DNA of 50,191 bases from a virus (IMGVR_UViG_3300035670_000312:1-50191); one strand, 5' to 3'; counted from the stretch's first letter, positions 16,509 to 46,750 are shown. A program made the numbers and translations. The notes: generated by a model from the letters alone, not told the origin.

Positions 16509-16509
16509 C

Positions 16510-20583: not shown

Positions 20584-20598
20584 CGGAGGAAATCCGAT
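20563..20598 (-). terminator. compact terminator (20582-20598 stem) shared with promoter
   Basis: ATCGGA pairs with TCCGAT around a 5-nt loop, then TTACCC and CTTTTTT. It ends transcription from the 20598-20798 gene. Confidence 0.45.
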
Positions 20599-22900: not shown

Positions 22901-22922
22901 GCTTGCCTTTGAAACTCCTATT

Positions 22923-22951
22923 AATATACAGCGTATGGGCCAAAAACGCAA
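22923..22951 (-). promoter_or_regulatory. sigma70-type promoter of sigma factor B
   Basis: TTGCGT (22946-22951), a 17-nt spacer and TATATT (22923-22928). The -35 overlaps the terminator stem at 22947-22972. Confidence 0.6.
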
Positions 22952-30066: not shown

Positions 30067-33000
30067 TTAGGTAAGCATGGATCGGCGGACGTCGGAAACC
30101 TCTTCCCAAATCCTTTGTGCGACATAGTTTGCCAGTTGCTCTCGGTCATTCATGCCGCTGCCATCTATGGTAACATTTATGCCCCCGTTGATGGTTGTAC
30201 CCCCTCCGAAACCTTCGGCAGAGTTGCCGGTGATTGAGGATACTTTGACGGAACCGGGCACCATGGATTTTTCCCACTGGTGAGCCCCTCCGGGGCCACG
30301 CAACTGAGTGAACATTCTGCCACTCTCATAGCCTTCGGCAAATGCAACATGGACGTGGTTATAGTGACTGCCCTGTGCGATGGGTGGTATCCTCTGTCCG
30401 TTCTTGATGCTGAACCCGAGAGGAGTATAGATGAGTTCTGCCATTCGGGAACCGTATTGCGCAGCCATTGACTGGGCAAATCGGAGCATTTGCGGGGTGG
30501 GTCCCGTGCTGTTGGAGAAGTCCATTGCCCGACCCACGTTATGATACGAGGCGTTGGCTGGGCCGCTTCTCTTGTATGAAGTCATTGTGAGACCCATACT
30601 CTTTGCCAGAGCATATGCCAATCCGAGACTTCCGGTTGCCCCACCCAAAGGACCACCCGGAGACATCAGCTGTCCAGCCATGTTGGCAAGGCCTTGAAGA
30701 GGCCCCACGAACTTCATCAGGGCGTCACCCATTGATCCCAGGGGGGAGTATCCCCCTGAAGCAGGAATCACTGTTTCGGAACTGTTTGCAATAAGGAGAT
30801 GAGATCCTTTTGGTTTGTTCTTCATCTCTGTGGCAATTGCGTCACCAAGTCCCATCTTGCGTCCGGGGGTCCCCCCGTAAACAGGCGCTGCCATGCCTCC
30901 GGGAGATGTGGCTGCTGCTCTTCCTGGTCGAGCCTGACTGGTTGAGGTCGGGTCAATGCCGCCTGGGGTGGTGCTTCCTACTCCTTTGATCTTGGCTGCG
31001 GCCTGACTGATCGCCGTGGCTAATCCTCCAGCAGCAGTAAGCAGCTTTGTTTGAGCACCTGTGGAGGTCGTCTCCCAGGCTTTTTTCATTTTGGTCTCAA
31101 GAGCAATCTGTTCTTTGGCCGCTTTGTCAGCTAGCTCCCTTAACTGCTTTTTATTATTCGTATTTGCATTCTCGGCTGCTGTGGCTCTGTTTTCGGCAGT
31201 GAGTCTTGCCTGAGTGGCATTGTTGAGTTGAGTTTGATACCCTGCCAGAATCTTCGCTTGCTGTAACTCCTCTGGAGAGAGGCCCATGGCTTTAACTTTT
31301 GCGGGATCTTGAAGTGCCTTAAACAATCCAGCACCACCACCGAAATACTGGCTAATAGCTTCCGTTCCACCGAGTGCTCCAGACTCTTGCAAATACTTTG
31401 CATTGGCTGCGTCGGTTGCCCGATTCATAGCGGCGGCGGCATCCGCTTGAGCCTTGGCAGCGGCTTCCTGGGCATTTTTTGGACCTGCGAATGCATTAAA
31501 TACCCTGTCACCGATGATTCCACCAGCGATGCCGCCAACTGCGGCACCCACCCCAGGGATCGGTATCAGTGCCTGACCGAGAATGCCACCCAGAGTGGAT
31601 CCGATGACGGAAGCTGCGGCGCCACCGAGTGCTCTTCCAGCATCCTCACCCTGCGCCACTCTCAACCCCGCATCAACGGCACCGAGGGCCAATGCCCCTC
31701 CGGGAACGAACCTGCCTGCACCTTTTGCCATCCCTCCTACGCTTTGTGCGAACTTGCCGGCTCCGGTGGCTTTGCCCATTTTGTAGGTCGATGCCCGGAG
31801 TTGACGCTGCCAACGAGGGGGTTTCTTCGTTCCGGATGCCATGTATGGACTACCGGAGACAATCCCAGTGCTCGGGTCTCGGACCCCCCGTGGCATCGGA
31901 CCGATTGGTGATGTGTACTGTGTTTTTCCTCTTTGCTTAAGGGCTTTGGGGACGAAAGCCCCCCCAAACCCTGTAACGGTATCGAGACCTTTACCTTTTG
32001 CCACACCGAAGATGGCATCCGCAAACTTATGGGCAATGGCCATCGTGAGCGTTTGAATGGCCACCGGCAAGGTGAGCATCAATGCCCCGATGAGATATGC
32101 CTCCAGAGGAATAATCTTGGCAATCTCCACGAAAGCATTGAACATTATTGTGAAAACATCTTTGAAGATGTTTCGGAAAGCTTTCGCACCCCCGGCATCA
32201 TTGAACCCTTGGCCCAGTCCAGTGAAGAACTGAGCGGATTTTTTCACACGGCCAGACAGGAACCCTGTAACCTTTGCCACTTCGGAAATGACGGTGCCAA
32301 TTATCTGTCCAATCGTCTTTCCAATTTCCTTGGCAACCTTGGAGTTCAGGAAACTGTCCAGAAGCTCGCCGAGGATTTTTCCGACATTCAAGTTCTTCTC
32401 GCCAAGTTGAGCGGAGATCTTCTCAAACTGCCCTTTTCCAAGACCGCCGAACTGGTCGAGGATGTTCGTGATTGCCATCAGAGTGGCACGAATGTCAAGG
32501 CTGTCTTTGATGAATCCTTTCCCTGGCATCTTGGCGAGATTCTTCAAACCTTCTCGATACATGTTGAAGGTTCTGTTGAACTCAGCGGCATAGTGACGTG
32601 CTTCAAGTAGAATCTTTGTAACCCCCTTCAAGGGATCAAAAATTTCCGGCAAAATCTCAACGATTGGCATCAAGACCTGGCCAACATTCGAGAGAATATC
32701 TGCAATAATTTCGAAAATACTGAGATCTTCCTTCGCCGCCATGGACATGTGAGCCACTGCCTCTCCAGCCTCATTCACATACTGACCATAGGAGTTCAAT
32801 CGTTTTCCTATGCCTTTCATCTGGCGCCCGAGACCGAAGATTCCAGTGTCAGGGTCCATAAAGGCTGACTTGAATCCCTGATAAATACCATCGACACTCA
32901 CACGGAGTTTTTCGATCATCTCCGGTGTGACGATCTCATCCAAAACCTTGTCGAGCATTTTTGCACGCTCAACGGAATTTTTGGCAGTTGCGTTAATTTT

Positions 33001-34218
33001 GTCTACATTCCGTTGCAAAGCATCTGCGATTGCTGGGTCAGAAAACACTGACGCATATCGTTGGAATTTCGCAACGGAGACCTCTTCCTCCGAAACCAGT
33101 CTCTCGACAATTCCGGGCAGACCGTACGCACCGGAAATTCCCCCAGCACCCGAACGGTTTCCAATGCCACCCAACGTGGCTTTTTTCGTCAAGTTTCCGA
33201 GAATAGTTTCAATAACTTTTTGCTGCTGCTTCGCACCAGTTGCTGCTGTCAGCTCTTCTGCAGACCCATAGTATTTTCCTCCCTCTTTTTCCCGAATCTC
33301 CTTGGCATACTGCAATGCTCCCTGAAAGTCCTGAGTAACAATGCGGGCAGCCGTGTCACTCAGACGCTTTCCGACTTGCACATAGTCATTGGTTACACCC
33401 GGAAGATCCTTTGCCAGATTTGCAAAGGTTCTGTTTGTGTCTTGCTGGAACTGAATTGCCTCATCAATGTCCTTCAGGAAGGGGTTCTTGGCTCGTTTCG
33501 AGATCGAATACAAAGCACCCGCGGCTTTCAAGTCAGACAGTTGGTCTTGAACTCGTTCTCCAAATGCATCCGCAAAATACTCAAATGGCTTGGTCATCAA
33601 GCCGACGCCAATCTGGAATCCGGATACAATGGCGCTCTCAATGGGAGCCGAAAGTGCCTGGCTCAGTCCGAATGCCAGAGTGAACTGGGCCATCGGAAAG
33701 GCATCCCCGCCTCCTCCTCCACCACCCCCTCGTGAGGAACCCGAAGGGGGACGGCGATATCCCCCTCCACCACCACCACCATAGGCAGGAGCTGATCCAG
33801 GAGACATTAATTGAGGTGCCCGGCGACCACGGGTCGAGTTGGCTACCCTTTGATAGTTCTGAGCGCTCCTGGTTGCTTGGTTCCAGAATTGTGTTTCGTT
33901 TCTTGCTGCTTGTTGGGTGGCTCGGGCAATTGCAAAGTGAGCACGAGCAACTCCACCGATTTCTTTCTTGTATTGTCGAAGAACGGGTATTGACTCACTG
34001 ACTGCCGTTTTCACGTCTCTGACAGCAGTTGCCAAATTTTTCTGCGCAGACACCAAGGATCCCATTGCCTTGGTGATCTCTCCGTATCCGCCTCTGCGTG
34101 TTGAAAGTCCTGCTAAAGTAGTTCTTACCTTGGCAATGGAGTTATTGATGGATTCCAGAGATGGCGTAATGCCATCCTTAAACTCACCTATGAGTGTAAA
34201 TGTTCTCTGGTCAGCCAT
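30067..34218 (-). CDS. tape measure protein with peptidase-like C-terminus
   Basis: This 1383-aa protein shows the tape-measure build. A helical, Ala/Lys/Gln-rich N-terminus is followed by a Gly-rich low-complexity stretch near residues 140-170 and hydrophobic segments in the middle (GGALALGAVDAGLRVAQGED and LIGALMLTLPVAIQTLTMAI). Near the C-terminus, SYHNVGRAMDFS and SHYNHVHVAF give the His/Asp residues of an M15-like D,D-peptidase or endolysin-type domain. It sets tail length and helps DNA entry. A class 2 box lies 25 nt before its start. It is the longest gene here. Confidence 0.85.
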   Translation of the reverse strand: MADQRTFTLIGEFKDGITPSLESINNSIAKVRTTLAGLSTRRGGYGEITKAMGSLVSAQKNLATAVRDVKTAVSESIPVLRQYKKEIGGVARAHFAIARATQQAARNETQFWNQATRSAQNYQRVANSTRGRRAPQLMSPGSAPAYGGGGGGGYRRPPSGSSRGGGGGGGGDAFPMAQFTLAFGLSQALSAPIESAIVSGFQIGVGLMTKPFEYFADAFGERVQDQLSDLKAAGALYSISKRAKNPFLKDIDEAIQFQQDTNRTFANLAKDLPGVTNDYVQVGKRLSDTAARIVTQDFQGALQYAKEIREKEGGKYYGSAEELTAATGAKQQQKVIETILGNLTKKATLGGIGNRSGAGGISGAYGLPGIVERLVSEEEVSVAKFQRYASVFSDPAIADALQRNVDKINATAKNSVERAKMLDKVLDEIVTPEMIEKLRVSVDGIYQGFKSAFMDPDTGIFGLGRQMKGIGKRLNSYGQYVNEAGEAVAHMSMAAKEDLSIFEIIADILSNVGQVLMPIVEILPEIFDPLKGVTKILLEARHYAAEFNRTFNMYREGLKNLAKMPGKGFIKDSLDIRATLMAITNILDQFGGLGKGQFEKISAQLGEKNLNVGKILGELLDSFLNSKVAKEIGKTIGQIIGTVISEVAKVTGFLSGRVKKSAQFFTGLGQGFNDAGGAKAFRNIFKDVFTIMFNAFVEIAKIIPLEAYLIGALMLTLPVAIQTLTMAIAHKFADAIFGVAKGKGLDTVTGFGGAFVPKALKQRGKTQYTSPIGPMPRGVRDPSTGIVSGSPYMASGTKKPPRWQRQLRASTYKMGKATGAGKFAQSVGGMAKGAGRFVPGGALALGAVDAGLRVAQGEDAGRALGGAAASVIGSTLGGILGQALIPIPGVGAAVGGIAGGIIGDRVFNAFAGPKNAQEAAAKAQADAAAAMNRATDAANAKYLQESGALGGTEAISQYFGGGAGLFKALQDPAKVKAMGLSPEELQQAKILAGYQTQLNNATQARLTAENRATAAENANTNNKKQLRELADKAAKEQIALETKMKKAWETTSTGAQTKLLTAAGGLATAISQAAAKIKGVGSTTPGGIDPTSTSQARPGRAAATSPGGMAAPVYGGTPGRKMGLGDAIATEMKNKPKGSHLLIANSSETVIPASGGYSPLGSMGDALMKFVGPLQGLANMAGQLMSPGGPLGGATGSLGLAYALAKSMGLTMTSYKRSGPANASYHNVGRAMDFSNSTGPTPQMLRFAQSMAAQYGSRMAELIYTPLGFSIKNGQRIPPIAQGSHYNHVHVAFAEGYESGRMFTQLRGPGGAHQWEKSMVPGSVKVSSITGNSAEGFGGGTTINGGINVTIDGSGMNDREQLANYVAQRIWEEVSDVRRSMLT

Positions 34219-34241: not shown

Positions 34242-34251
34242 GGTTTTACCC
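34242..34251 (-). promoter_or_regulatory. class 2 promoter box of the tape measure gene
   Basis: Exact GGGTAAAACC in the 38-nt gap between the gpU-like and tape measure genes. Confidence 0.55.
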
Positions 34252-34256
34252 TGTCC

Positions 34257-35123
34257 CTAGAACTGCTGGACTTTCACCCTTTCACCCAGTTTTGCTGGCG
34301 GCGGAGGTGGTTTTGTCGTAGTCGCCGCAGGTTTCGGGGCGGTCGATCCCGCCGCAGGTTTCGTGCCAGGTGCCCCAGGTTTGGACCCAGCCCCTGCAGC
34401 AGCGGGGCCAGTTCCGGCAACATTCCCGTTGGCTTGAGACTGTACTGATTGCTGAAGAGCGGATCCTCCTCGGGTAACTTCCCCTGCTTGGTCTCTGCCA
34501 GAGTTTACCTGATACGCTGGAACCTGCATCAAGGAGATATCTACGTATGCTCGAGTGGCATTTCCCTGGAGATCCCTCATCGACTCCTTGACTCTGACAT
34601 CTTTAATGATGAAGTATGCCTGAGATCCACCGTAACTTTTGGAGTTTGCCCACACTTGATACACAGGGACGGAAACAAAACCGTCCGTCGTGTTTAGGGA
34701 GTATTCTGTCAACTTCTCCAGTGCGGCGATTTTTGCTTCGACCGTGACTTTCCTTACGAAACCTTCCACCAGAGCGTTGCCGAGTGTCAAGTCCCTCATC
34801 CCTTTTGTGCCAGCAACCACGGGTGGATTGTTCGATCCGAAAATGTCAATGCGATTGGCATCATTGGCAATGTTCCACGAAACATCCTCAGGGGCACAGA
34901 TGAATGTCCATCCACCACCACTGCCACCACCGGCCAGAGCACCCGTGCCAGATAGATCATCAGCAACGCTGTTGAAATCTCCGGTCACGTCTGTGCCAAA
35001 CTTCAAATCGGGGTTTAGATAATCAGCAGCAGGGTTCGATGAGAATTTCTCCGAAAAAGATGGAGAGATACTGCCACCCCCTAAATAACTCGCGGCGCTT
35101 TGCCCAAAGTTCGGTCCAGCCAT
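34257..35123 (-). CDS. gpU-like tail/baseplate protein
   Basis: This 288-aa protein starts MAGPNFGQSAASYLGGGSIS, then has a core of strands: FICAPEDVSWNIANDANRID, NALVEGFVRKVTVEAKIAAL and FIIKDVRVKESMRDLQGNAT. The pattern resembles gpU/LysM-associated tail-baseplate proteins of cyanophages (from memory). The last 90 residues are a Pro/Ala-rich linker (PAAAGAGSKPGAPGTKPAAG). The start abuts the end of the upstream gene. Confidence 0.55.
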   Translation of the reverse strand: MAGPNFGQSAASYLGGGSISPSFSEKFSSNPAADYLNPDLKFGTDVTGDFNSVADDLSGTGALAGGGSGGGWTFICAPEDVSWNIANDANRIDIFGSNNPPVVAGTKGMRDLTLGNALVEGFVRKVTVEAKIAALEKLTEYSLNTTDGFVSVPVYQVWANSKSYGGSQAYFIIKDVRVKESMRDLQGNATRAYVDISLMQVPAYQVNSGRDQAGEVTRGGSALQQSVQSQANGNVAGTGPAAAGAGSKPGAPGTKPAAGSTAPKPAATTTKPPPPPAKLGERVKVQQF

Positions 35124-35851
35124 TATGCTATGCTCCCGCTGGGGGGACTAGGGTTGACGTCCATTATTACACCTTTTGTATAGTCTAGAGCAGGAGGGGA
35201 GCCCACTCCGAAAACGTCTCCGTTAAGGGTACCCCAAGGGAGGGTTGTCTGAGACAGTGGTACCCCGTACGACAAATCTCCAAAAGCCTGAGGACCCTGG
35301 TTAGCGGGTTGAAGGGAAAACGTAACATCACCCAAAGTGTAAGCCGAACCACCGTAGTCCGCTGCGGGTTCACCTCCACCTCCGGGGAACATTTTATAGT
35401 TTGTCGCTGTACTAGTAGCGCCAAAAATTGCGTCTGTTAGACCCTGTGTCGCCTGACTGACGAGACTGGTACCAACATTTGAAAGCAGAGGGCCAAACGG
35501 CCCGGCACTTTGTAAAGTCTGTTGTATCTGCTGGTTGATTCCTGCCGCAACTTGGCTGGTTACTTGCGGAGTTACCAAACTGGCCAAAACGTTTGCGCCG
35601 GAGTCTAACCTTAATCCCTGTGGGCCGACTGCCTGTGCCCCTAAAGCTGAGTTTAGTGCAACATTGACAACAGAGGCTGAGAGGTTCCCTGTGAGCGCTT
35701 GGCCGGCCTTACCAAAGAATGATTGACCGGAACCCTTCCAAACTTGACCCACAATGCCAGGCACGGTTCCCGATGTTGCTGAAGTGCCCAAGTTCACTAA
35801 AACAGAGGGATCAAGTCCTACCTCTGCGATTGGTCCACCCTGGAATGCCAT
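35123..35851 (-). CDS. tail structural protein, 242 aa
   Basis: It starts at ATG 35851 (MAFQGGPIAEVGLDPSVLVN); TAATG overlaps the previous stop. Residues 40-150 are Ala/Val/Gln/Ser-rich helices without catalytic motif, and the C-terminal part is a Gly/Pro-rich strand region. It is a tail-module member by position, possibly a tube, initiator or baseplate wedge protein. The family is not recognised. Confidence 0.5.
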   Translation of the reverse strand: MAFQGGPIAEVGLDPSVLVNLGTSATSGTVPGIVGQVWKGSGQSFFGKAGQALTGNLSASVVNVALNSALGAQAVGPQGLRLDSGANVLASLVTPQVTSQVAAGINQQIQQTLQSAGPFGPLLSNVGTSLVSQATQGLTDAIFGATSTATNYKMFPGGGGEPAADYGGSAYTLGDVTFSLQPANQGPQAFGDLSYGVPLSQTTLPWGTLNGDVFGVGSPPALDYTKGVIMDVNPSPPSGSIA

Positions 35852-36510
35852 TATTTCCACCCCCGATGGCGAACACGTCGAGTGTAGTCGGTTTCACTTT
35901 GGTCGTCTGACTGGGAGACCGGTGGAAGTTTGTCAGCCGAGTCCCAGTGCATTCTGTATGTGCAGATCCACCCGTCTTCCGCTGGAGCAATCTCGAAGAT
36001 GAACTTGTTGCTGTCGTACATGAAAGTACCGGCAAAGGTTCCGTCATCCTCTTGAAGGAACTTGTTTTTCGGGTTTCCGTAATATCCTTTCTCGCTTCGA
36101 ATGGTTGACACCTTGTCTCCGAACACGGAGGAGATGACTTCAATCAAAACCTTTTCAACTTTTTCAGAAGTGCCCAGGTTGTCTTCCACAAACTCAAACT
36201 CTGTAGCATCTTCGTCATACACACGAAGGAGTTCCTCTGCGGAGATTCCTTCGATGTCTTCGATGTCGGGCCAGTCTCCGGGACTCACTTTCCCGAGCAT
36301 CTCGATAGCTTCTTCAATCTCGGTTTCTTCCAATTCGGAATACTCCTCAACAAGAGGGAGCAGTCCAACCAGGGAAACATCCCCGTCAACATAGGTGTGG
36401 TTTAAGTGCTCAGCGTAGTTCTGAGGGATCCGGGAAGGATCCCCCTTACTCGCTTGCCACAGCAGTCGAGCCATCCCCAGATATTTTGCCTGATAGGCTG
36501 CATCAGCCAT
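35851..36510 (-). CDS. acidic protein, paralogue of the 3788-4468 gene
   Basis: This 219-aa protein shares domain order with 3788-4468: ARLLWQASKGD, VDGDVSLVGLLPLVEEYSEL, WPDIEDI, a coiled middle, FAGTFMYDSNKF and the GWICTYRMHW close. Here the C-terminus is longer and basic (ETDYTRRVRHRGWK). It starts the tail operon under a class 2 box. A structural or assembly role is suggested by position; function unknown. Confidence 0.6.
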   Translation of the reverse strand: MADAAYQAKYLGMARLLWQASKGDPSRIPQNYAEHLNHTYVDGDVSLVGLLPLVEEYSELEETEIEEAIEMLGKVSPGDWPDIEDIEGISAEELLRVYDEDATEFEFVEDNLGTSEKVEKVLIEVISSVFGDKVSTIRSEKGYYGNPKNKFLQEDDGTFAGTFMYDSNKFIFEIAPAEDGWICTYRMHWDSADKLPPVSQSDDQSETDYTRRVRHRGWK

Positions 36511-36530
36511 GTTCCCTTTTCAATCTATCT

Positions 36531-36540
36531 GGTTTTACCC
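36531..36540 (-). promoter_or_regulatory. class 2 promoter box of the tail operon
   Basis: Exact GGGTAAAACC, 22 nt from the ATG at 36510, in the only gap between the exonuclease and tail genes. Confidence 0.55.
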
Positions 36541-36546
36541 GCTGAG

Positions 36547-37512
36547 CTACACCTTGTAAGGTGCTTCAAGGCAAATCTTTGCGAATTGCCGTAGAGTTTG
36601 CTCCAAGTGGTCGGGTCTGTCGTTTGCTCTGGGGTCTTCGCAACACTCCTTCAACTCGGAAAACACAGGCAACTTGTCAATGTTGAATTCGGGATGTGGT
36701 TCGCATAAGTCAAACAACTCAATGGGAGTGCCTTTCGGAAGATTGTCTCCGAGGTCCGATGCTAAACTTTTCTTCGCCGCCAACTCCGACGGGTGAGAGA
36801 TTTCATACCCAAGTTTATGCTGTGTATGGAAAATCACACCCGCATTGCCAACAAGTCGTTCTTGAATTTTTTCATTCGGGAACGGATAGCGAGTGTTTGC
36901 GAAATAGATTTTGTGCGCCTCATCAACGCACTGACTCCAGTCGCGATCGAGGGTGGCGAGGAAGATTTGTCGTCTGCGGACCACCGAGTCGGTGGCGGAG
37001 TCTCGACTAAGCCTGTAAACTGCTCCAGCGAAGTCATCAGCTTCGTACCCTTCCGCTTCAAAGAATGGGAAATACTCCGTAGCATAGTTACGGCAGATGT
37101 TGTAGACGAACCAAAACTCATCTGATTTTTCGCCACGGGTTCCTTTGTAATCTTTCTTGAGTGTGTCGTAGTCAACTCCCTCCCGTTCGGCGTGGTCGAT
37201 CCACGCTTGTTTCACGATCGGACAGGTTTGCATCACATTGTTTCGCCAGTAGTTGTGACTGTCGGCAAAACGTTTGTCCGCAACAAAAAGCATTCGGTAA
37301 GTGTGCCGAGGGAGCATGTCAGGCCCCCTGTTAATGTGAAGGGCAAAAGCGCCCTTCACCAACTTTTCCTCAACCTCTTTCTTGAACGATCCAGAGATTT
37401 TCTGGTACCAGTTCAGAACGTGGAAGACTGCGACGTTGAAATCCCAGACAACCAGCGGAACTGGGTTTCTCTCTAGGACGATAGTTTGTTCAAGTTTCGG
37501 TCGGTCGGTCAT
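36547..37512 (-). CDS. FEN-like 5'-3' exonuclease
   Basis: This 321-aa protein has the FEN/PIN signature: VVWDFN with Asp24 (metal), KDYKGTR with basic residues, EAEGYEADDFAGAV (E157, D159, D160) and FLATLDRDWSQCV (D189, D191). It would remove RNA primers or flaps. It differs from bacterial Pol I exonucleases but fits T4 RNase H-type enzymes. It is coupled to the 73-aa gene by ATGA. Confidence 0.7.
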   Translation of the reverse strand: MTDRPKLEQTIVLERNPVPLVVWDFNVAVFHVLNWYQKISGSFKKEVEEKLVKGAFALHINRGPDMLPRHTYRMLFVADKRFADSHNYWRNNVMQTCPIVKQAWIDHAEREGVDYDTLKKDYKGTRGEKSDEFWFVYNICRNYATEYFPFFEAEGYEADDFAGAVYRLSRDSATDSVVRRRQIFLATLDRDWSQCVDEAHKIYFANTRYPFPNEKIQERLVGNAGVIFHTQHKLGYEISHPSELAAKKSLASDLGDNLPKGTPIELFDLCEPHPEFNIDKLPVFSELKECCEDPRANDRPDHLEQTLRQFAKICLEAPYKV

Positions 37513-37730
37513 TTAGGCATTTGAATGTCTAACCAGTATTCTGGTTCGCCGTCAGGAGTATAGCCAAAGAGAGGTTCCCAGGTGCCTTTAGCAAAGGACC
37601 AGATGTCGGGATCTCCAAGGTCCCCATCCTCTGTGCGGAACACAACCATGTAATCACCGTCACGAGAAGGGTAATCAGCCATGATCTTCCAGTGACCAGT
37701 GGCGGCTTGCTTGTTCATCAGGGTGGTCAT
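37509..37730 (-). CDS. small DUF551-like protein, 73 aa
   Basis: MTTLMNKQAATGHWKIMADY, then a W-x-P-type strand and GEPEYWLDIQMPK at the end. The Trp-rich layout with a closing YW-D-I is like DUF551 (pattern only). The start abuts the ThyX stop; the stop overlaps the exonuclease start. Confidence 0.5.
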   Translation of the reverse strand: MTTLMNKQAATGHWKIMADYPSRDGDYMVVFRTEDGDLGDPDIWSFAKGTWEPLFGYTPDGEPEYWLDIQMPK

Positions 37731-38516
37731 TTACAGTCGGTTCCTCAGGGTTGCTTTCAGTACTTCGATTTCAGCTTTGAGCTCTTGGTTTTCTACTTCC
37801 AATGGAGTTGGAACAACATCGAACACTGCTTTGCTTACGGTTGGGAAGGTGTTTGCAAAGACGGACTTGACGGCTCGGGCGAGATCGCAGTGCTCGTATT
37901 GAGCAACACCGATGTCATCACGCACCCCAATGTAATGGATAAAGCTGCGAGCAGAACCTGTAACGTACAGACGGCTAAAAACACCTTGAGGGAGAACGAA
38001 ACGTGCGATTTCTTTCGCGACTCCACGGGTAAGGAGATCATTGTAGCATTGAAGGGCAACAGTGTAGGCAGTGGACATTGTGTTCCACATTGCGTCAGTT
38101 AGACCAGGGTCAGACGCCGGGAGAGAATTCTGGCGGTTTTTTGGATCTTGCTCCCGTGCCTCTTCAGGCATGTAAAACAAATTACCAAAGGAACTTAAGT
38201 CAGCAGTGTGCTTGAGCATTTCCTGCTGATCTTCGTACCGACCAGAGAATTGCTGAAATGTAAAACTGCGATGACGGAGCAACTGGACGGCAATGGCCAA
38301 AGGTGTGACAACCTCAACCGTCATTGTGGCTTGTTCAAACACCGACCAGTGTGAGTTCTTGGCACAATACTTTAGCAGACCTTCGACCTTGGGGTTGCTT
38401 TGATCCTTGGAAGTAACTCGGGCAATGTATCCCATCATTGCCTCGGGGTCGGGTGTGTGCGACACCAATCGCACTTTGCTTGACCCTTCGATATACCAGG
38501 GGTTTGTGTTTTCCAT
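37731..38516 (-). CDS. thyX: flavin-dependent thymidylate synthase ThyX
   Basis: From ATG 38516 the protein is 261 aa. The ThyX motif RHRSFTFQQFSGRYE (81-95) is present, with Thr at the first Ser position. HWSVFEQATMTVEV and the SFIHYIGVRDD segment are also ThyX-typical. It methylates dUMP with FADH2, linking the deaminase product to dTMP. C-terminal LKAEIEVLKATLRNRL is a coiled coil. The frame to 38600 overlaps the upstream gene. Confidence 0.9.
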   Translation of the reverse strand: MENTNPWYIEGSSKVRLVSHTPDPEAMMGYIARVTSKDQSNPKVEGLLKYCAKNSHWSVFEQATMTVEVVTPLAIAVQLLRHRSFTFQQFSGRYEDQQEMLKHTADLSSFGNLFYMPEEAREQDPKNRQNSLPASDPGLTDAMWNTMSTAYTVALQCYNDLLTRGVAKEIARFVLPQGVFSRLYVTGSARSFIHYIGVRDDIGVAQYEHCDLARAVKSVFANTFPTVSKAVFDVVPTPLEVENQELKAEIEVLKATLRNRL

Positions 38517-38893
38517 CAACCGAAAGAGATAGTGTCTGTACCTTGGCCCCCGTAGATCACGGTGTCTCCAAACGCTCCGGATATGCCAGAAGGCGGGCAA
38601 CTAGCGTACTGCCCAAACGGTACAAAGTCAACTCCTTGAGAACCCGACATGGTGATCTGTCCGAGTCCGGCCTCATACGGTGAAGTCCGAGTCGTCACAG
38701 TCTCCGAGACCACAGCCAACTCCCCATCCACAATGTACCCACATGCTCGCAGGAAACAGGTGAAGAAGGAAGTTATGTTCTCCAGACTCGCCTCACCGGA
38801 GATAGTCATCTCAACAGTGTGGTCTAGAACGTCGTCAAAGGTGCCAGCAGTTGGAGGCTCATAAGCAAGGCGGAACCGCCCAAAGTCAGTCAT
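38516..38893 (-). CDS. hypothetical protein, 125 aa
   Basis: It starts MTDFGRFRLAYEPPTAGTFD, followed by EMTISGEASLENITSFFTCF and LRACGYIVDGELAVV, a small alpha/beta fold. The last 40 residues are Gly/Ser-rich. I recall similar ACGY-V-DG strands in cyanophage proteins, unverified. It is first in the thyX operon under a class 1 promoter and overlaps thyX by one base. Confidence 0.55.
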   Translation of the reverse strand: MTDFGRFRLAYEPPTAGTFDDVLDHTVEMTISGEASLENITSFFTCFLRACGYIVDGELAVVSETVTTRTSPYEAGLGQITMSGSQGVDFVPFGQYASCPPSGISGAFGDTVIYGGQGTDTISFG

Positions 38894-38916
38894 TGTTAGT
38901 AGTATGGTTGCGGTTT

Positions 38917-38944
38917 AGTATAGGTTGACAGGGGTGCCGTAAAT
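38917..38944 (-). promoter_or_regulatory. class 1 promoter of the thyX operon
   Basis: ATTTAC (38939-38944), a 16-nt spacer and TATACT (38917-38922), 24 nt before the ATG at 38893; it touches the stop of the exonuclease gene. Confidence 0.65.
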
Positions 38945-39564
38945 CAAAAGTCCAGGTCGAGGTCCTCGGCAGTGAGTTTGTCCTCGTTGAACAACCCGGC
39001 CATCTTTTGCATTGCTTTCAGTGTGTTTCGGCAATCGACTTGGGCATCGTGGGCTTCTTCACCGAGGAAGTTGGGGAGACGTTGCCACTTGAATCCGTCT
39101 TTCTTCGAGTTCCACTCACCGGACCACTCACTGTATTTGTCCATGGCACAAGACAAACCGGCTGTCTTGGGTTTGTCAATCTCATACTTAGCAAACATGT
39201 GAACCAGCAACCTCCAGTCAAAGTCCATGTTCCATGAGATGACATGCTTGTCCTTGAGGACAAACGAAATCATTCGAGCAACTTGCGGGAACATCGGTTG
39301 ATTGACCACCTGCTCATTTGAGATTTTGTGAATGCCGATCACCGTGTCATTCATCGGCTGCGAGGGTTTCAGCAGCATGCTGAAGAGGGGCCGGCCCTGG
39401 ATGTCCAGAATGCAAATCTGGGCAATCTCAGTCTCGGGGTCCTCTCGAAGAAGACCAGTGGACTCAAGATCCAAAATCACCGTGTTTTGGTCTGCCAGTC
39501 GCTCGGTTGCCCATTGCTTGGCATTGTCCTTGAAAGTTGCCAGCTGGTCAATTGTCGGTTTCAT
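38944..39564 (-). CDS. DEDDh 3'-5' exonuclease, LDF-tailed
   Basis: This 206-aa protein has the DnaQ/RNase T motifs: ILDLESTGL (Asp32, Glu34), ISWNMDFDWR and HDAQVDC, the DEDDh arrangement. It would degrade single strands or proofread. It ends AEDLDLDF, sharing its LDF end with 27633-28607 and 40202-40954. It overlaps the 78-aa gene by 17 nt. Confidence 0.8.
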   Translation of the reverse strand: MKPTIDQLATFKDNAKQWATERLADQNTVILDLESTGLLREDPETEIAQICILDIQGRPLFSMLLKPSQPMNDTVIGIHKISNEQVVNQPMFPQVARMISFVLKDKHVISWNMDFDWRLLVHMFAKYEIDKPKTAGLSCAMDKYSEWSGEWNSKKDGFKWQRLPNFLGEEAHDAQVDCRNTLKAMQKMAGLFNEDKLTAEDLDLDF

Positions 39565-39784
39565 TGTTTGAGAGAAAGTTTTTCAATGTGTCGAGATCTT
39601 CAAGGACCTCTTTGGCATAGTCGGCAGCGATACGTTCACGCCACTCGATGATTTTAGAGAAGGCGACGATCAAGTCAGAGGCGAATCCCCGAACCTCCTC
39701 AATTCCGTCCGGTCCGTCCAACAACCTCCACTCGAAATATTCCTTGCCGTCGGCAGTAAATTTATTTACAATCGTGACTTTCAT
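39548..39784 (-). CDS. hypothetical protein, 78 aa
   Basis: MKVTIVNKFTADGKEYFEWR, then an acidic coiled helix (EVLEDLDTLKNFLSNNETDN). It is a small alpha/beta protein overlapping both neighbours. No family recognised. Confidence 0.5.
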   Translation of the reverse strand: MKVTIVNKFTADGKEYFEWRLLDGPDGIEEVRGFASDLIVAFSKIIEWRERIAADYAKEVLEDLDTLKNFLSNNETDN

Positions 39785-40190
39785 AACTCACAGGTAAGAG
39801 TCCGAAATCGGTGGTGTTGTACAAACCTCTGTCGTGAGACTTACCGCCAAGTCGGCGGTAGCTGTAGACAGTAGCCGTAAAGTTGATTCGTTCATTAAGT
39901 TCAGGGACTCGGCCGATCTTTTTAAATTGACGTTTGAGAATGAAAATGTGAGACAGGTAGATCGTTTCGCCGAGGGGTATGGGAGTGACAAACACGTTAA
40001 CGAGGCAAAAAGAATGGAGATCCCGTCTCGTTGCGTGCTTTCGCAACTCTTTTACTCTGGCGGACACCTTGACTTCGGTCCCCTCCAAAAGACGCAGATC
40101 GTCTCTGCGCCTGATCACGCTACTCACATTGCTCGCTCCGTGGCCGCAGGTAGCATAGCCGTGGGTGAGACGGGTAAATTCTCTTAGCAC
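39762..40190 (-). CDS. OB-fold-like protein, 142 aa
   Basis: It starts with GTG at 40190. The core LEGTEVKVSARVKELRKHAT, VFVTPIPLGETIYLSHIFI and NERINFTATVYSYRRLGG has the strand rhythm of an OB fold, as in small ssDNA- or RNA-binding proteins. The N-terminal 30 residues are poor and another GTG about 60 nt downstream may be the real start. It diverges from the plus-strand gene after only 11 nt. Confidence 0.5.
   Translation of the reverse strand: MLREFTRLTHGYATCGHGASNVSSVIRRRDDLRLLEGTEVKVSARVKELRKHATRRDLHSFCLVNVFVTPIPLGETIYLSHIFILKRQFKKIGRVPELNERINFTATVYSYRRLGGKSHDRGLYNTTDFGLLPVSYESHDCK
40172..40181 (+). promoter_or_regulatory. class 2-like box on the plus strand
   Basis: GGGTAAATTC, 20 nt before the ATG at 40202 and the only such box on the plus strand in front of a gene. 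It lies inside the first codons of the divergent gene. Confidence 0.4.
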
Positions 40191-40201
40191 AAACCAAAAC
40201 C

Positions 40202-40954
40202 ATGGGCATAGGCAAGGACACGTTCGGACTCAATAAGGGAGAGTTCAGTCAGAAGATCGGGAGAATAATTAAAAACTTTCGTGCAAACTCGAAACTGATT
40301 TCAGAACCGAGGGACTTTGTGTTGCGTTGCTGCAAGCTGACCGAACAGTGGAGCAAACTTGCCAATGACCCCGAGGTGCTGGTTTATCTGAGGAACATCG
40401 AGATTGCCGGTGGCCGCAAAGTCAAAGTGATCAGCCTTGAGAGAGGAGCCACTCGACAACCGGTTCCAAAAGCAAAATTGCTCGATGCGTTGTATCCCCC
40501 AAAGAAGACTGCCACAACGGCAACACCTGAGGAAAAACATTTCAATGCTGTAAAAGCATCAATGAGAGGTGGCATAAGTTATCAACTCAAGGCATTTCGG
40601 GATTCTTGTTCCATCCCTTGTGTATGTTACTTAAGTGGCAAAAAAATCCGTCCCGGTGATAGGACGGACGTGGATCACGTCGGAACACCTTTTTCCGAAA
40701 TCTGTGACGAGTTCGTTCGAGAAAAATGTTTAAACTATTCTCGCATAACTTTGAAGGGACCACCGACGAAAAAAGTTTTTGCGGACACCGTGCTCTGGGC
40801 AGAGTGGCTGGAGTTTCACGAAGGCAGAGCAAAGTACGCACTCACTCTGGCATCTGCCAACAGGTCAAAAGGTGCGGATGGCTATGAAACTTCGCAAGAA
40901 CTTATAGGATCTTTTGCGAAAGAAGATCCCGAGGATTTGTCGTTGGACTTTTGA
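40202..40954 (+). CDS. HNH/DUF3223-like protein, LDF-tailed
   Basis: The only clear plus-strand protein gene. The 250-aa product has a basic helical N-terminus, then CVCYLSGKKIRPGDRTDVDH, VGTPFSEICDEFV, and EWLEFHEGRAKYALTLASAN with RSKGADGY at the end of the domain, an HNH-type pattern as in DUF3223. It ends PEDLSLDF. It lacks the NUMOD domains of homing enzymes. It runs head-on into the fibre gene: stops at 40954 and 40955 abut with no terminator. A DNA-repair or recombination role is plausible. Confidence 0.65.
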   Translation: MGIGKDTFGLNKGEFSQKIGRIIKNFRANSKLISEPRDFVLRCCKLTEQWSKLANDPEVLVYLRNIEIAGGRKVKVISLERGATRQPVPKAKLLDALYPPKKTATTATPEEKHFNAVKASMRGGISYQLKAFRDSCSIPCVCYLSGKKIRPGDRTDVDHVGTPFSEICDEFVREKCLNYSRITLKGPPTKKVFADTVLWAEWLEFHEGRAKYALTLASANRSKGADGYETSQELIGSFAKEDPEDLSLDF

Positions 40955-42016
40955 TTATGCCTTCGTGGCAGTCACTCCAATGAAACTTGACCCAGTACTG
41001 GGTGCCTCGGTGAAGGAGATTGTAGATCCGACCACACTGAACGCTACGTTGGGAACCTGGGGAACACCACCAACGAAGATCAAAAGATTGGGGCCGGGGG
41101 TGACTGAAGCCCCCGAAACTGTCAAGGGGAAGTCGGTTTGAGTTCCGTTGAAACTTCCGGAAATGTCATCGAGGTACGCCAAAATCGGTGTGACTTTCAC
41201 ACCCACGTCCAAATACACCCAACTCGTACCAGTCGAAAGCAACCAGTCACCTTGGACCACACTGACCGGGGTAGTCTCTCCCGTAGGGGTGAAAGTGCCT
41301 TCTTCTGTACAAATTGCGAAATAATTTACGTTTGCGGTAGTAGGACTCGGCAAAGGGTCGTTGAGAACGAAACCAACTGCGGCTCCCTCTGTTGTCACAA
41401 ACGTCAAAGTTCCCGCACCGTTCAACCTGCCACCGAGAGTCAGGTTGGGGGATACGACAAGGGCATCGATTTGATTTTGCAGACTCAAGCCTTGCTTGGC
41501 AGAAAGAGCTATACTGGCAGAGTTTGTTGAAGTGTTGTCGGCAATTGTTGTTACACCCAGGCTACTAATTCCCCCTAGAACACCAACCGTTGAGTCAACA
41601 GAAATGACTGGAAACTGAGGATTTGTGAGATCAACTTTAATGGGTGGATTTGCTGTGACAGTCTGAGTTGACGCCTTTGCCGCATCGTAAGCAAGCTTAA
41701 CCGATCCCGCAGTTGCGGCGACTGTGCTTGAGGAAGACGTAACCGTGTCGTTTAACTGAACAAGACCGATCTGAGACGTACTACCAATCTGAATGGGGAC
41801 GTTTTGGGAAAAGGTTAGCTTACCGGTGTTGGTTACAGTAAATTGAGCAACCTCCAGAGGATTACCATACGTTCCAGCAGCCACACCTGTGGCAAAACTA
41901 ATTAACGACCACGTCTGTTCCGTAGAACTCCACTGATAGACATTTGTACCAGGCGGAGGGTTGACAGGGTATAACTGGCCGTTTACCGGACTTGTTGGAA
42001 ATGTAAGAAGCGCCAT
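40955..42016 (-). CDS. tail fibre-like protein, 353 aa
   Basis: The protein begins MALLTFPTSPVNGQLYPVNP, and its middle contains the repeat QIGLVQLNDTVT plus TVAATAGSVKLAYDAAKAS, a tail-fibre helical repeat of the Phage_fiber_2 type. The C-terminal 80 residues are strand-rich (GSFNGTQTDFPLTVSGASVT). It has a class 2 box and upstream terminator. It shares the LVQL/KLA repeat with the 48694 gene. Probably a tail-fibre or collar attachment protein. Confidence 0.7.
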   Translation of the reverse strand: MALLTFPTSPVNGQLYPVNPPPGTNVYQWSSTEQTWSLISFATGVAAGTYGNPLEVAQFTVTNTGKLTFSQNVPIQIGSTSQIGLVQLNDTVTSSSSTVAATAGSVKLAYDAAKASTQTVTANPPIKVDLTNPQFPVISVDSTVGVLGGISSLGVTTIADNTSTNSASIALSAKQGLSLQNQIDALVVSPNLTLGGRLNGAGTLTFVTTEGAAVGFVLNDPLPSPTTANVNYFAICTEEGTFTPTGETTPVSVVQGDWLLSTGTSWVYLDVGVKVTPILAYLDDISGSFNGTQTDFPLTVSGASVTPGPNLLIFVGGVPQVPNVAFSVVGSTISFTEAPSTGSSFIGVTATKA

Positions 42017-42046
42017 GCCACCCGCTAACAGGTTTTTCTGATAAGT

Positions 42047-42056
42047 GGTTTTACCC
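42047..42056 (-). promoter_or_regulatory. class 2 promoter box
   Basis: Exact GGGTAAAACC, 31 nt before the ATG at 42016 and just downstream of a terminator. Confidence 0.55.
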
Positions 42057-42060
42057 GGTT

Positions 42061-42087
42061 ACAAAAATCCCCCGATTGCTCGGGGGA
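42061..42087 (-). terminator. terminator after the collar fibre
   Basis: TCCCCCGA-GCAA-TCGGGGGA (42068-42087) followed by TTTTTGT on the minus strand. Confidence 0.85.
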
Positions 42088-42113
42088 GTGTCACTAAAAT
42101 GGAATCGATCTCT

Positions 42114-42830
42114 TTAGACGACTATTTCACCGTGAAAAATGCACGGGAGCAACGCTACGTTGACGGGTCGGGTCTCGCTGAGACCTGTCACATTAGTTTC
42201 GTAACCATTTCCAAAAGTTGTCGCCTGGTTAATCGAAGTTGTTGTTGTAGTTTCTGTGCCAGAGACTCCGTCTGCAGGGAGTTCGTGTGAGTGGGACTCT
42301 AGGGCGTGAGATTGACTGGATCCAAACAAGCGGCCAGGGTCGATGCCACCGGGGCTACCTCCGGCCTCATCCCATCCACGGAGGAATTGACCACGGAGGT
42401 CGGGCACGGCAAAGGTAGTTGTGCCATCTCCGCCATACAAACCACCCAACAAACCGCCGAGTGAAGGGTAATCGGTAAATTGGTGGACACTTCCGTCACA
42501 GACCAGGTACCCGTCAGGGGCAATGTCCATTGCAAAGTAAGAAACTTTGCCCACAAGACACGTCAGCAGAGCCTTAGAAAGTCGATCTGAGTAAGAAATG
42601 GTTTCTGCCAGATCGTTTGTGGGGGCGTATATTTGGAAGTATTCGTCCCGATCTTGAGAAATTCCGGCCTTAATCCAGCCTTGAGGTACGTTCTGATTTT
42701 GAAAACCGTCAAAATAGGGCAAAAAACCCGCATTTCTTAGATTTTCAGTGGTTGGAGGCAACCCGAACTGGGCGGAAAAATCTCCCGTGCTAATAAATTC
42801 TTCTAGGTCAGAGTTGTAGTAAATAGTCAT
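42114..42830 (-). CDS. phage tail collar-domain protein (short fibre)
   Basis: Residues 95-150 hold a tail collar domain: SYFAMDIAPDGYLVCDGSVH, then PSLGGLLGGLYGGDGTTTFA and VPDLRGQFLRGWDEAGGSPG. The rest is strand-rich and ends TRPVNVALLPCIFHGEIVV, as in many collar-fibre proteins. It is the adhesin partner next to the giant fibre. It precedes a clear terminator. Confidence 0.85.
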   Translation of the reverse strand: MTIYYNSDLEEFISTGDFSAQFGLPPTTENLRNAGFLPYFDGFQNQNVPQGWIKAGISQDRDEYFQIYAPTNDLAETISYSDRLSKALLTCLVGKVSYFAMDIAPDGYLVCDGSVHQFTDYPSLGGLLGGLYGGDGTTTFAVPDLRGQFLRGWDEAGGSPGGIDPGRLFGSSQSHALESHSHELPADGVSGTETTTTTSINQATTFGNGYETNVTGLSETRPVNVALLPCIFHGEIVV

Positions 42831-42834
42831 GGCG

Positions 42835-45800
42835 TTACGAGATTCGGAAACTCTTCAGTGTGTTGTTTACGGAGTCAATGAACGACCCGTTAATGTAAAT
42901 GTCGATGCCAGGGTTGACGTACACGGTCGATGTAACTTGTCCATTTGTGACCAGGTTGCTACGGGCTGAGGCGCCGCCTCCACCACCACCACCACCGTCG
43001 CCACCAAACCCACGGCCACCACCACCACCACCAGGCCAACCGCCGCCACCACCACCACCGGCGCCGTCGTCATTGCCCGAGCCGCTGCCGGCTTGGGCGC
43101 CTGCAGGGTAGATCGAAGAGTTTCTCACTCCACCTCCACCACCACCACCACCGTTGGGGCCACCCCCCGAATTTCCGGGGGATCCGTTCTGGTCATTATA
43201 TCCACCACCACCACCACCAGAACCGGATCCTCGACTTCCACTACCACCACCAGCTCCGACTCCCTGGACTAGAACGTCCCAGAAACTGTCTAGAGTTCCG
43301 GTACTAAATCCGGCAGGAATGGCCACACCATCGCCGTTTCCGATGGGTCCCGTGAAAGTCAGAATGTCGTTAACGGCATATCCGCTCCCCGGTACTCCAA
43401 TGCCTGTGCAAATTGTCCTGCCGTTGCCGTCTCTGCTCAGGGTCAGTTTACAACCCGTTCCACCACCTCCGGTTACAGGGCCTGGGTTGGTAGTGTAATA
43501 GTCGTTCAGGCCATAAGCTATGTTAACTGCTTCCACCTGGGAGACCGAACCCCCTCCCCCAAGCTGTGTGACTCTAAACTTAGCCGGCTGCCTTAGTTGA
43601 AGGTAGACTGCTCCCCGTGGCTTACCACCGTCAGTTCCACAATCTCCGTAAGTGCCGTTGCACCCTTTGGGTCCAAAGTTTAGAACACCGTTAGTGGTTG
43701 AGGTATTGTCGATTCCCACGATGTAGAGACCAGGTCGAGGAAATACGAAAAATTCTCCAGAGTCATAGTTATTTCCTAGCCAGGTTTTCAGAATATATCT
43801 CAGGTTCTTTAAGGTCCCCGTTGCGGTCTTGACGATCGAAGAGTACGGGGAGAAAGTCCCCAAACTGGACTTGTATCGGAACCTCACATAGTAGGGGCTG
43901 TTACCACCCACACTACCCGGAACTTGAATATTTTGTGTGGTGCTGGCCGTTGTAAACGTGAAGGTTGTCGGAGAGGAAAACGCAAGATCCGTGGACAGTT
44001 GCCACTCACTTTGAGAGAATGTACCTGCGCTTACCCCGTTGAATGAAGTTATGGTGAAAGAGGCAACACCAGCAGTAACGGGTTGTGTTTGAACCGTCAG
44101 GGGCACAGCGGTCCCACCTCCCAGTCCAGATAGGTTTAAAGTTACCTGCTCACCGTTAATATATCCAGTTCCGCCGGAATCGACATATGCCAAGCTAACA
44201 TTGCCCGCACTGTCAGTTGTAACGGTGACGGTCAGGCCGTTGCCACTTCCCCCCGTGGCAGACAAGGCCAGTGCCTCTGAGTCGGGTGTTAAACCCGAGA
44301 CCGGGTTTACAAGGGAGACAGCTCCAACGACACTCGAAGTGTCAAACAAAGGTTCCACGGGTGCAATGTAGGTTACCCCGTCTGTACCTGCCACGTTTGT
44401 GATGCTGGGCTGAGCAATTCCAGAAGAAGCCGTTTTTACGGTCCAGGTAGTATTTTCGGTTGTGACTGAGCTGCCGAGTCTAACTGCCAGAGTGTAGTCA
44501 GTTAACACGGATCCGCCCGTACCTCCACGCACCCGGAAAGAAGCATCTGGATTCACAAGGGCAGTTGTACCGGTGGTAGGGATGGACGCCCAGGTTACTC
44601 CCCCGTCTTGACTGTACTGGGGGGAGGAAAGTGTCGTAGTTCCTCCGTCGTAAGTTAGGTAGGAGGGAGCCGTTGTTCCTGACAAGGTAATTGTGTCTGA
44701 AACCACCGTGGACAACAAGGGGGCGTCTGTAGCAATGTCCGTAAAAGAGTAAGGGTCAGGAAGGCGATCAATTACTAAAGAGTCAGAGTTGAGGAAAGTC
44801 CCGTTGGTGAGAGTGCCTGTGATGGTACCGGATGAAAGAGCACCGCAGGAAGGGGTGTTCTTCCAACGCAGGTAAACGGTGTTACCGTCAGCAACCGCAG
44901 TAGAAGAACTTGTAAACGTCGTTCCGTTTAGGGAGAGCTCAATGCAACCAACGGTGCTAATGTTTGTAGATCCGTCTGCCCAAGTGAAACTCGTGACCTC
45001 TGGGATGAAAGTGGGGAAAGTTACAAAAGTGTTCGGGAAAACACCTCCCGAAGTGCTTGCCGAGAAGGTCCCGGTTTGAACATTTGCCCCTTCACCGATG
45101 GCAATTACGGCATCGTAAGTTGAAGATGCCGAAGCACCAACCGTGAAACGAATGGACAGGGTTTGACCTGGACTGATCGGCAGACTTGTGCCGCTTGCTG
45201 GAACATTTGTGTAAGATCCACCACCCACGCTGGCTTGAACACTTGTGCCAGTTGTGGAAACAAGCGTAATGTATCCGGGGGCATTAATCTCAGTCAAGCT
45301 AATGGTCGAAGAAGTTGCCACGGCGTTCGGAGCAACGTTCGTCCCAGGGCCAAAGCTAAACGGACCCGGCTTACGGTCGACCGTTAAGTTGGAGACAGAA
45401 GAGTACGTACCGTTTGTGATGGAACCAGTGATCCCAGTGTTGTGAGGTGCCGAACCGCACTGACCGGCAGGACCCGACGTCCAACGGGTTCCAACGGTAT
45501 CCCCGGGAACAACGGCCTTTCCACTTTGGCTGAATGCTCCCCCGTTTACGTTAAACTCGATACAACCGGTAGAAGTCAAGGTCGTACCAGTTCCGTCCCA
45601 TGTAAAAGAGCTGGAGCTCAATGTGTCCGTGGGGAAGGTTGGCGTCGTGGGGTTGGGGAATGGGGGAGGATTAACGGGACCGACGGCGGCGGTCGTACCG
45701 GTCACACTTTGACCGGAGCTGTCCGAGGCTGTTAATGTGACGGAAATGGTTTTGTTAATTTCACCCGTAGTCACCAAGTATGAGGGTGTGTTAGTGGCGA

Positions 45801-46716
45801 GAGTGGTGCCGTCGCTATTTTTCCAAACCCAAGAGTAGGTGATTGGAGCTGCCCCGCCGGTGGCGGTACCAGTGTTATAGTTAATGGTAGATCCAACCGC
45901 AGCCGAACCCGTGATGGAACCAGGGGAAGCCAGGATGACGGGGTCTACAGTATTTACCGTTCCATTAATATAGACCGACTGGTACCCGACTTTTAGGGCA
46001 AGGTTGTAAGCCGTGCCGGAAGTAGATGTGGGAACGTCATTAAAAATGACTTGGAAGATCAGATTTCCGGAGGCATTCGAATAGTAGTTCGTAAACTGGA
46101 AACGCCCACCGTTTGTAGCTGCGTTCAGATCAACAATCGGAACATACTGGAACGGTGCCAATCCCGTAATAGTAATTACGTTAGGCAAGGCAAAGGATGC
46201 CCCGGTGCCAGCAGAGACGGCGGACAGGGTGTAAGGATTCGCAGAAGTACCCGCACCACCGGTGAAGGCAGGAGTGGAAGAAGAGTTCGCAGGGGTAACC
46301 TCAAGGCCCGCCTCGAACACACTGGTCCAGCCACCTGGAGACACACAGTTTTGATAAACCTTAAGCTCACCGACATTACAGTCGAACCAGAGTTCGCCTT
46401 CGTCGCGAGGTGTGGGTTCAATGGGAGACACCGTAACCACGGCGAATCCGGAAGCATCAGCCCACTTGAGGATGCCTGCTCCGTCAGTTTGAAGAAACTG
46501 ATCGGCGGTTCCGTCAGCTGCTGGCCAGGTGTAGGCATTGTAGGCTGAACCATTGTTCAGCTTCATCAGACCTACGACCGTGGAGGCATCCACGGAGATC
46601 TGACCATTGGCAGCGATTGAAATGCCGGTACCTTGGGTAACGCCTTGCACCTGACCTGCAAGAACGGTTCCCTGGGCCTGGTTTCCGGCTAGAAGTTGCG
46701 CACGAGTTAAAGCCAC
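42835..46716 (-). CDS. giant tail fibre adhesin with polyglycine C-terminus
   Basis: This 1293-aa protein starts MALTRAQLLAGNQAQGTVLA. Residues 250-350 contain an Ig/PKD-like repeat (GSITGSAAVGSTINYNTGTA then SVTLTASDSSGQSVTGT). The centre is beta-rich and repetitive. The last 130 residues are almost entirely Gly with Ser/Asn/Asp, like the polyglycine-sandwich tips of S16/T4-type adhesins. It likely recognises the host surface. The N-terminus shares LNN-x-AYNAY-W-P with the 48694 gene. A class 2 box lies 26 nt upstream. Confidence 0.8.
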   Translation of the reverse strand: MALTRAQLLAGNQAQGTVLAGQVQGVTQGTGISIAANGQISVDASTVVGLMKLNNGSAYNAYTWPAADGTADQFLQTDGAGILKWADASGFAVVTVSPIEPTPRDEGELWFDCNVGELKVYQNCVSPGGWTSVFEAGLEVTPANSSSTPAFTGGAGTSANPYTLSAVSAGTGASFALPNVITITGLAPFQYVPIVDLNAATNGGRFQFTNYYSNASGNLIFQVIFNDVPTSTSGTAYNLALKVGYQSVYINGTVNTVDPVILASPGSITGSAAVGSTINYNTGTATGGAAPITYSWVWKNSDGTTLATNTPSYLVTTGEINKTISVTLTASDSSGQSVTGTTAAVGPVNPPPFPNPTTPTFPTDTLSSSSFTWDGTGTTLTSTGCIEFNVNGGAFSQSGKAVVPGDTVGTRWTSGPAGQCGSAPHNTGITGSITNGTYSSVSNLTVDRKPGPFSFGPGTNVAPNAVATSSTISLTEINAPGYITLVSTTGTSVQASVGGGSYTNVPASGTSLPISPGQTLSIRFTVGASASSTYDAVIAIGEGANVQTGTFSASTSGGVFPNTFVTFPTFIPEVTSFTWADGSTNISTVGCIELSLNGTTFTSSSTAVADGNTVYLRWKNTPSCGALSSGTITGTLTNGTFLNSDSLVIDRLPDPYSFTDIATDAPLLSTVVSDTITLSGTTAPSYLTYDGGTTTLSSPQYSQDGGVTWASIPTTGTTALVNPDASFRVRGGTGGSVLTDYTLAVRLGSSVTTENTTWTVKTASSGIAQPSITNVAGTDGVTYIAPVEPLFDTSSVVGAVSLVNPVSGLTPDSEALALSATGGSGNGLTVTVTTDSAGNVSLAYVDSGGTGYINGEQVTLNLSGLGGGTAVPLTVQTQPVTAGVASFTITSFNGVSAGTFSQSEWQLSTDLAFSSPTTFTFTTASTTQNIQVPGSVGGNSPYYVRFRYKSSLGTFSPYSSIVKTATGTLKNLRYILKTWLGNNYDSGEFFVFPRPGLYIVGIDNTSTTNGVLNFGPKGCNGTYGDCGTDGGKPRGAVYLQLRQPAKFRVTQLGGGGSVSQVEAVNIAYGLNDYYTTNPGPVTGGGGTGCKLTLSRDGNGRTICTGIGVPGSGYAVNDILTFTGPIGNGDGVAIPAGFSTGTLDSFWDVLVQGVGAGGGSGSRGSGSGGGGGGYNDQNGSPGNSGGGPNGGGGGGGGVRNSSIYPAGAQAGSGSGNDDGAGGGGGGGWPGGGGGGRGFGGDGGGGGGGGASARSNLVTNGQVTSTVYVNPGIDIYINGSFIDSVNNTLKSFRIS

Positions 46717-46740
46717 AAGCTATAAACGTCAACGATACCA

Positions 46741-46750
46741 GGTTTTACCC
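46741..46750 (-). promoter_or_regulatory. class 2 promoter box of the giant fibre gene
   Basis: Exact GGGTAAAACC, 25 nt before the start at 46716, directly after a terminator. Confidence 0.55.

Follow-up and report, generated by a model that had tools for sequence, protein, structure and literature searches.

Does the short sequence GGGTAAAACC, which recurs upstream of genes in this viral DNA, represent a promoter and, if so, which sigma factor might read it? The question stems from an earlier note on this DNA, in which the box had been proposed as a new promoter class preceding late-type genes. The window, i.e., the whole stretch of DNA that was analysed, is a 50,191-base IMG/VR virus contig in which nearly all the genes are located on the minus strand; it shares genes and gene order with the Synechococcus phage S-CBWM1 (Aokuangvirus, 139,069 b).

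Distribution of the box in the window

Six exact copies of GGGTAAAACC are present in the window, every one of them on the minus (gene) strand. Exact copies located upstream of genes are found at 6441-6450, 21 nt before a virion structural gene (4791-6419) matching phrog_1645 (E=4e-123); at 34242-34251, 23 nt before a tape-measure/tail-lysin-like gene (30067-34218); at 36531-36540, 20 nt before a gene of unknown function (35851-36510); at 42047-42056, 30 nt before a tail-fibre-like gene (40955-42016); and at 46741-46750, 24 nt before a gene encoding 1293 aa (42835-46716). Other forms of the box, also on the minus strand, are GGGTAAAACT at 799-808, between tRNA-Asn and an HNH endonuclease gene (125-778), an order also found in S-CBWM1 (20008-20777); the variant AGGTAAAAAT at 4762-4771, 20 nt before gene 4520-4741; and the variant GGGTAAAAGC at 15643-15652, 21 nt before gene 15445-15621. 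On the plus strand, the variant GGGTAAATTC (40172-40181) precedes the gene 40202-40954, which is on the same strand, by 20 nt.

All these sites, those before the genes starting at 6419, 34218, 36510, 42016 and 46716 (exact) and at 778, 4741 and 15621 (variants), as well as the one on the plus strand, had been named in the earlier note and are real; the nearly constant distance from the start codon that it described holds as well, the gap from the 10-mer being 20-30 nt for all eight minus-strand genes named. The list was nonetheless incomplete, as further boxes of the minus strand are located at 4491-4500 (GGGTAAAATG, 22 nt before gene 3788-4468) and at 2617-2626 (GGGTAAAATT, 29 nt before gene 2153-2587). 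The former is a composite site, with a GTTTAC -35 element starting from 4519 and a 16-nt spacer.

One exact copy had been reported to lie in coding DNA, and this is indeed the case: at 24379-24388 (minus strand), the box encodes Gly-Lys-Thr in frame, within the stretch FAGKTASS, conserved as FAGKTTTS in a relative (G007). Since this copy is in frame and embedded in a conserved protein stretch, it is judged to be accounted for by the protein sequence, and not to be a promoter.

Allowing up to one mismatch, GGGTAAAACC occurs at 13 sites of the window versus 3.75 expected, a number that was reached in none of 100 shuffles. The conserved core is not the full GGGTAAAACC, but [A/G]GGTAAAA followed by pyrimidines, the position-specific matrix being [A/G]GGTAAAA[C/T][C/T]. 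A terminator-like hairpin immediately precedes the boxes at 42047-42056 and 46741-46750, the two clear cases in the window; as a general rule, this arrangement was rejected (3/113 overall vs 1.2% at random).

Enrichment, architecture and target genes in related phages

When all the 8-mers upstream of the annotated S-CBWM1 genes were ranked, no motif being supplied, the first one was GGGTAAAA, with 22 occurrences observed versus 0.77 expected (p about 1.5e-24); its copies in this genome number 34, of which 33 fall on the main gene strand, and the 8-mer most often lies 22-31 nt from the start codon. The same method applied to the T4-like S-RIM8 as a control yielded ATAAATA, a known late motif, and is therefore able to detect real late promoters. 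With ab-initio genes, GGGTAAAA ranked first in the window (9/13 copies upstream of genes, 0.4 expected, p about 8e-10), in S-CBWM1 and in five relatives (G007, G009, G005, G019 and G020), second in G010, and third in G004, where 4/8 copies are located upstream of genes. Two GC-rich (65%) relatives keep the strand bias of the box (11:0 and 5:0 at score 12). Contigs of the SigA type (see below) carry GGGTAAAA on the gene strand, whereas contigs related through their virion genes do not. The box is also conserved at orthologous positions: orthologues of boxed S-CBWM1 genes are themselves boxed in 15/34 cases, versus 20/191 for the unboxed genes (p about 1e-5). The earlier note had named a lack of enrichment upstream of genes across the genome as the outcome that would speak against its proposal; enrichment was found, and the claim stands.

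The alignment of 33+89 (122) box sites did not reveal any conserved -35 element, in agreement with the earlier statement that the boxes lack a GTTTAC -35, which does not hold for every box, as the composite site at 4491-4500 shows. In the same alignment, a weak downstream signal is visible at box position 14, consisting of a purine, mostly A, which is a plausible transcription start site. The boxes follow the orientation of genes located on the minority strand (40202 in the window and 84477 in S-CBWM1). A repeat around TGTGAAAGATT...CACTGTCCCA was observed just upstream of several S-CBWM1 boxes (near 26662, 65887, 126638 and 135703).

The gene strand also carries promoters of a second class, GTTTAC-N16/17-TANNNT, for example the two-element sites of the window at 4519, 9649, 28700 and 48693 (minus strand). 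A TANNNT at 16-17 nt accompanies GTTTAC in 71/237 cases on the gene strand versus 3/132 antisense (p about 2e-12), and GGG often precedes the -10 of this class. Some GTTTAC promoters are composites bearing GGGTAAAAT/GGGTATAAT at the -10 (4519 in the window, 5884 in G007 and 2315 in S-CBWM1). Since these sequences stand at the GTTTAC spacing, they fix the register of the box, with TAAAA(T) as the -10 hexamer and GGG as its upstream extension.

Concerning the target genes, a box stands directly upstream of 11/22 virion/lysis genes of S-CBWM1 versus 2/19 nucleotide/replication genes (p=0.009, with the gene lists of the two classes hand-picked from product names). The earlier idea that the targets are mostly structural or lysis genes thus agrees with this bias, but it is too narrow, as boxes also stand before an HNH endonuclease gene, small ORFs and genes without a known function. 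Among the core structural genes, those for the terminase and the neck and two tail genes are not immediately preceded by a box, and their expression would depend on read-through transcription. The GTTTAC promoters of S-CBWM1 precede psbA, hli, a heat-shock gene and a dNMP kinase gene; because these lie behind the GTTTAC class and the boxes favour virion/lysis genes, the boxed genes are likely to be expressed late.

Candidate readers of the box and alternative explanations

Two phage sigma factors are encoded on the minus strand of the window, SigA (15831-16538) and SigB (22310-22951), orthologues of S-CBWM1 gp045 and gp055, respectively. No named phage other than S-CBWM1 has a close relative of SigA, and a distant one is gp108 of S-TIM5. 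SigA aligns with the cyanobacterial (Synechocystis) and Thermus SigA over regions 2-3; Pfam recognised region 2 and, weakly, region 3, and did not detect a C-terminal region 4. The AlphaFold model of SigA (pLDDT 68, a modest confidence) has a sigma70-family fold according to Foldseek, which aligns its C-terminus to full sigma factors, so that SigA may retain a degenerate region 4. For SigB, the Pfam matches are to region 2 and, weakly, to region 4, region 3 being absent.

On this basis, the box is probably a late promoter of S-CBWM1-like cyanophages (Aokuangvirus and relatives), read by the phage SigA on the host RNA polymerase. It would be the single DNA element of a promoter of the 'extended -10 only' kind, without a -35, with TAAAA[C/T] acting as the -10 hexamer and the [A/G]GG before it as the extended -10. 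The host core RNA polymerase carrying SigA would recognise it through sigma region 2, reading TAAAAY, and the region 2.4-3.0 linker, reading GG; region 4 would not be needed, because the box promoters are without a -35. Late in infection, transcripts would begin about 6-8 nt downstream of the box and carry leaders some 14-25 nt long, at many virion and lysis genes and at some others. We infer the recognition by SigA, the late timing and the start position from computed data, namely enrichment, strand, spacing, conservation, absence of the -35, register and domain content of SigA.

Sister phages provide a natural comparison. S-TIM5 and G011 possess a SigA relative with a differing recognition helix (FSTWVNRCLQFHMLNYL vs YSTYAWNTARGYIQHAL) and carry their own -35-less box, GTTTAAAG (p about 9e-25 and 2e-12, respectively), which in S-TIM5-like phages stands about 20-40 nt before many genes. 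On the other hand, the SigA of G017 is 49% identical, with the recognition helix unchanged, yet no box was found upstream of the genes of this relative, which harbours abundant host-like TTGACA-N16/17-TANNNT promoters. The rule that every phage with SigA has the box is, hence, contradicted by G017 and, for this reason, the assignment of the box to SigA is likely, not proven.

The strongest competitor is a host sigma factor, either the group 1 SigA or a SigF-type one (TAGGC-GGTAA), which might read the box as an extended -10, leaving the phage sigma uninvolved. TAAAAT is, in fact, just one base away from TATAAT, some cyanobacterial promoters consist of a -10 or an extended -10 and nothing else, and the SigF promoter TAGGC-N-GGTAA has its GGTAA in the -12 region (PMC2758279). 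A two-part promoter of the SigF type can be rejected, though, as the -32 TAGGC (about 15 nt upstream of GGTAA) was found at 0/44 strong boxes; moreover, the invariant GG before the hexamer differs from the TGn of the host extended -10, and GGGTAAAA is rare in T4-like relatives. Lastly, the phages with a diverged SigA switch to GTTTAAAG, yet S-TIM5 too infects marine Synechococcus. A host reader appears, overall, unlikely.

Still less probable is that SigB reads the box and SigA something else. SigB is present alongside SigA in all the larger contigs of the S-CBWM1-like lineage, a co-occurrence compatible with this assignment, and the GGG shared with the -10 of the GTTTAC class points the same way. 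Nevertheless, a factor that keeps region 4 and is without region 3 suits a -35/-10 promoter, and the GTTTAC class is the one that tracks SigB: it occurs where SigB shares 46% identity or more with that of the window and was not detected at an identity of 45% or lower. In addition, the single-element box of S-TIM5 and G011 occurs without any SigB hit in these phages, and ACG-2014f has a SigB-like factor with no enrichment of GGGTAAAA. SigB is, thus, more likely the reader of the GTTTAC class. One might go further and tentatively propose a two-sigma split, in which SigA (regions 2+3) would read the -35-less [A/G]GGTAAAA and SigB (regions 2+4) GTTTAC-N16/17-TATAAT, the sigma-promoter pairs having diverged together in sister lineages, as the contrasts between GGGTAAAA and GTTTAAAG and between presence and absence of the GTTTAC class might suggest; we regard this wider scheme as possible, with the balance somewhat against it.

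The boxes could also act in the RNA, as a translation enhancer or as a leader site for protein binding or cleavage, and the fairly narrow distance from the start codon would fit such a role. It is, however, very improbable: the distance does vary, the box does not resemble a Shine-Dalgarno sequence, its place is that of the -10 in the GTTTAC promoters, and no Rfam family was found at the boxes. Furthermore, boxes precede tRNA or pseudo-tRNA genes in S-CBWM1 (17881, 19612 and 24773), and tRNA genes need no translation. Chance or a coding artefact, e.g., Gly-stop (GGG TAA) codons at gene ends of a compact genome, has a negligible probability and is refuted for the box set as a whole, even though the TAA is an annotated stop codon at 8/42 S-CBWM1 sites and single copies, like the Gly-Lys-Thr one, can be due to chance, since 24/42 sites are intergenic in a genome that is 89% coding and the enrichment (p about 1e-24) is repeated across genomes.

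The promoter reading of the box is, therefore, well supported by the sequence evidence, and the original proposal of a promoter class before late-type genes is supported by enrichment, strand-following, boxes before tRNA genes, target bias, conservation in orthologues and -10 register.

Relationship to known promoter systems and phage lineages

The T4 late promoter is a short -35-less element preceding virion genes, read by gp55, a small phage sigma without region 4 (PMC2988020). The system described here resembles it in having a short -35-less box before virion genes and a candidate small phage sigma without a detected region 4. The sequences differ: the T4 late box is TATAAATA, predicted also in T4-like cyanophages, while the top upstream word here is GGGTAAAA, and ATAAATA came first in the S-RIM8 control alone. 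SigA was considered as a gp55 and rejected, as the box sequence differs and the proteins belong to distinct families: gp55 of ACG-2014f matches phrog_234 (3e-69), whereas SigA and SigB of S-CBWM1 and gp108 of S-TIM5 match phrog_351, not phrog_234 (E<=0.01). By tblastn with ACG-2014f proteins (E<=0.01), no homologue of the gp45 clamp or of the gp44/gp62 clamp loader was found, and the same search yielded no gp55 homologue. Ma-LMM01 is likewise a cyanophage without gp55; its late promoters, which have both a -35 and a -10, are similar to those of the host SigA (PMC5780444).

A parallel in kind is phiEco32, where a phage sigma70-family factor reads a single-element promoter of about 9 bp at middle/late genes (PMC4331800). 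Both phiEco32 (promoter TAATGTATA) and phage 7-11 combine a phage sigma with a single element, and the features found here are of the same sort, i.e., a repeated short element in a near-fixed place, no -35, and a phage-encoded sigma70-family factor. phiEco32 differs in host, sequence and sigma, and its promoters were mapped experimentally, whereas the box promoters are predicted from sequence. Within cyanophages, the S-TIM5-like box GTTTAAAG occupies the same place, has no -35 and is accompanied by a SigA-related sigma gene; it has GTT for GGG and G for A after TAAA, and the corresponding sigma is only about 25% identical to SigA, the recognition helix differing. No description of the boxes was found in the open literature, a search outside of which fell the original S-CBWM1 and S-TIM5 genome papers. 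The novelty claimed for the promoter class, thus, applies to the sequence of the box; its kind, a short single element with a phage sigma, is already known from T4 and phiEco32.

The window phage is not a standard T4-like cyanophage, given its kinship with S-CBWM1, whose portal and large terminase have the S-TIM5-like phages (Aurunvirus) as nearest named relatives; the virion protein encoded at 4791-6419 has relatives in T4-like cyanophages and in HMO-2011. For two cyanophage lineages without a recognisable T4 late apparatus, the S-CBWM1-like and the S-TIM5-like ones, a testable late-promoter code and a candidate reader would become available, and the genes of uncultured relatives could be sorted into promoter classes on the basis of sequence only. 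The two naturally occurring boxes, paired with recognition helices that have diverged, might also serve as a set for learning how sigma 2.4-3.0 chooses among extended -10 sequences.

Other elements were observed on the minus strand of the window. A glutamine riboswitch aptamer (Rfam RF01739, 42.6 bits) is located at 7425-7529, and two group I introns (RF00028) that seem to interrupt psbA at 8858-9743 and 9844-10703, each of them containing a homing-endonuclease-like ORF. A homing endonuclease gene (18417-19049) also lies between two ribonucleotide reductase subunit genes.
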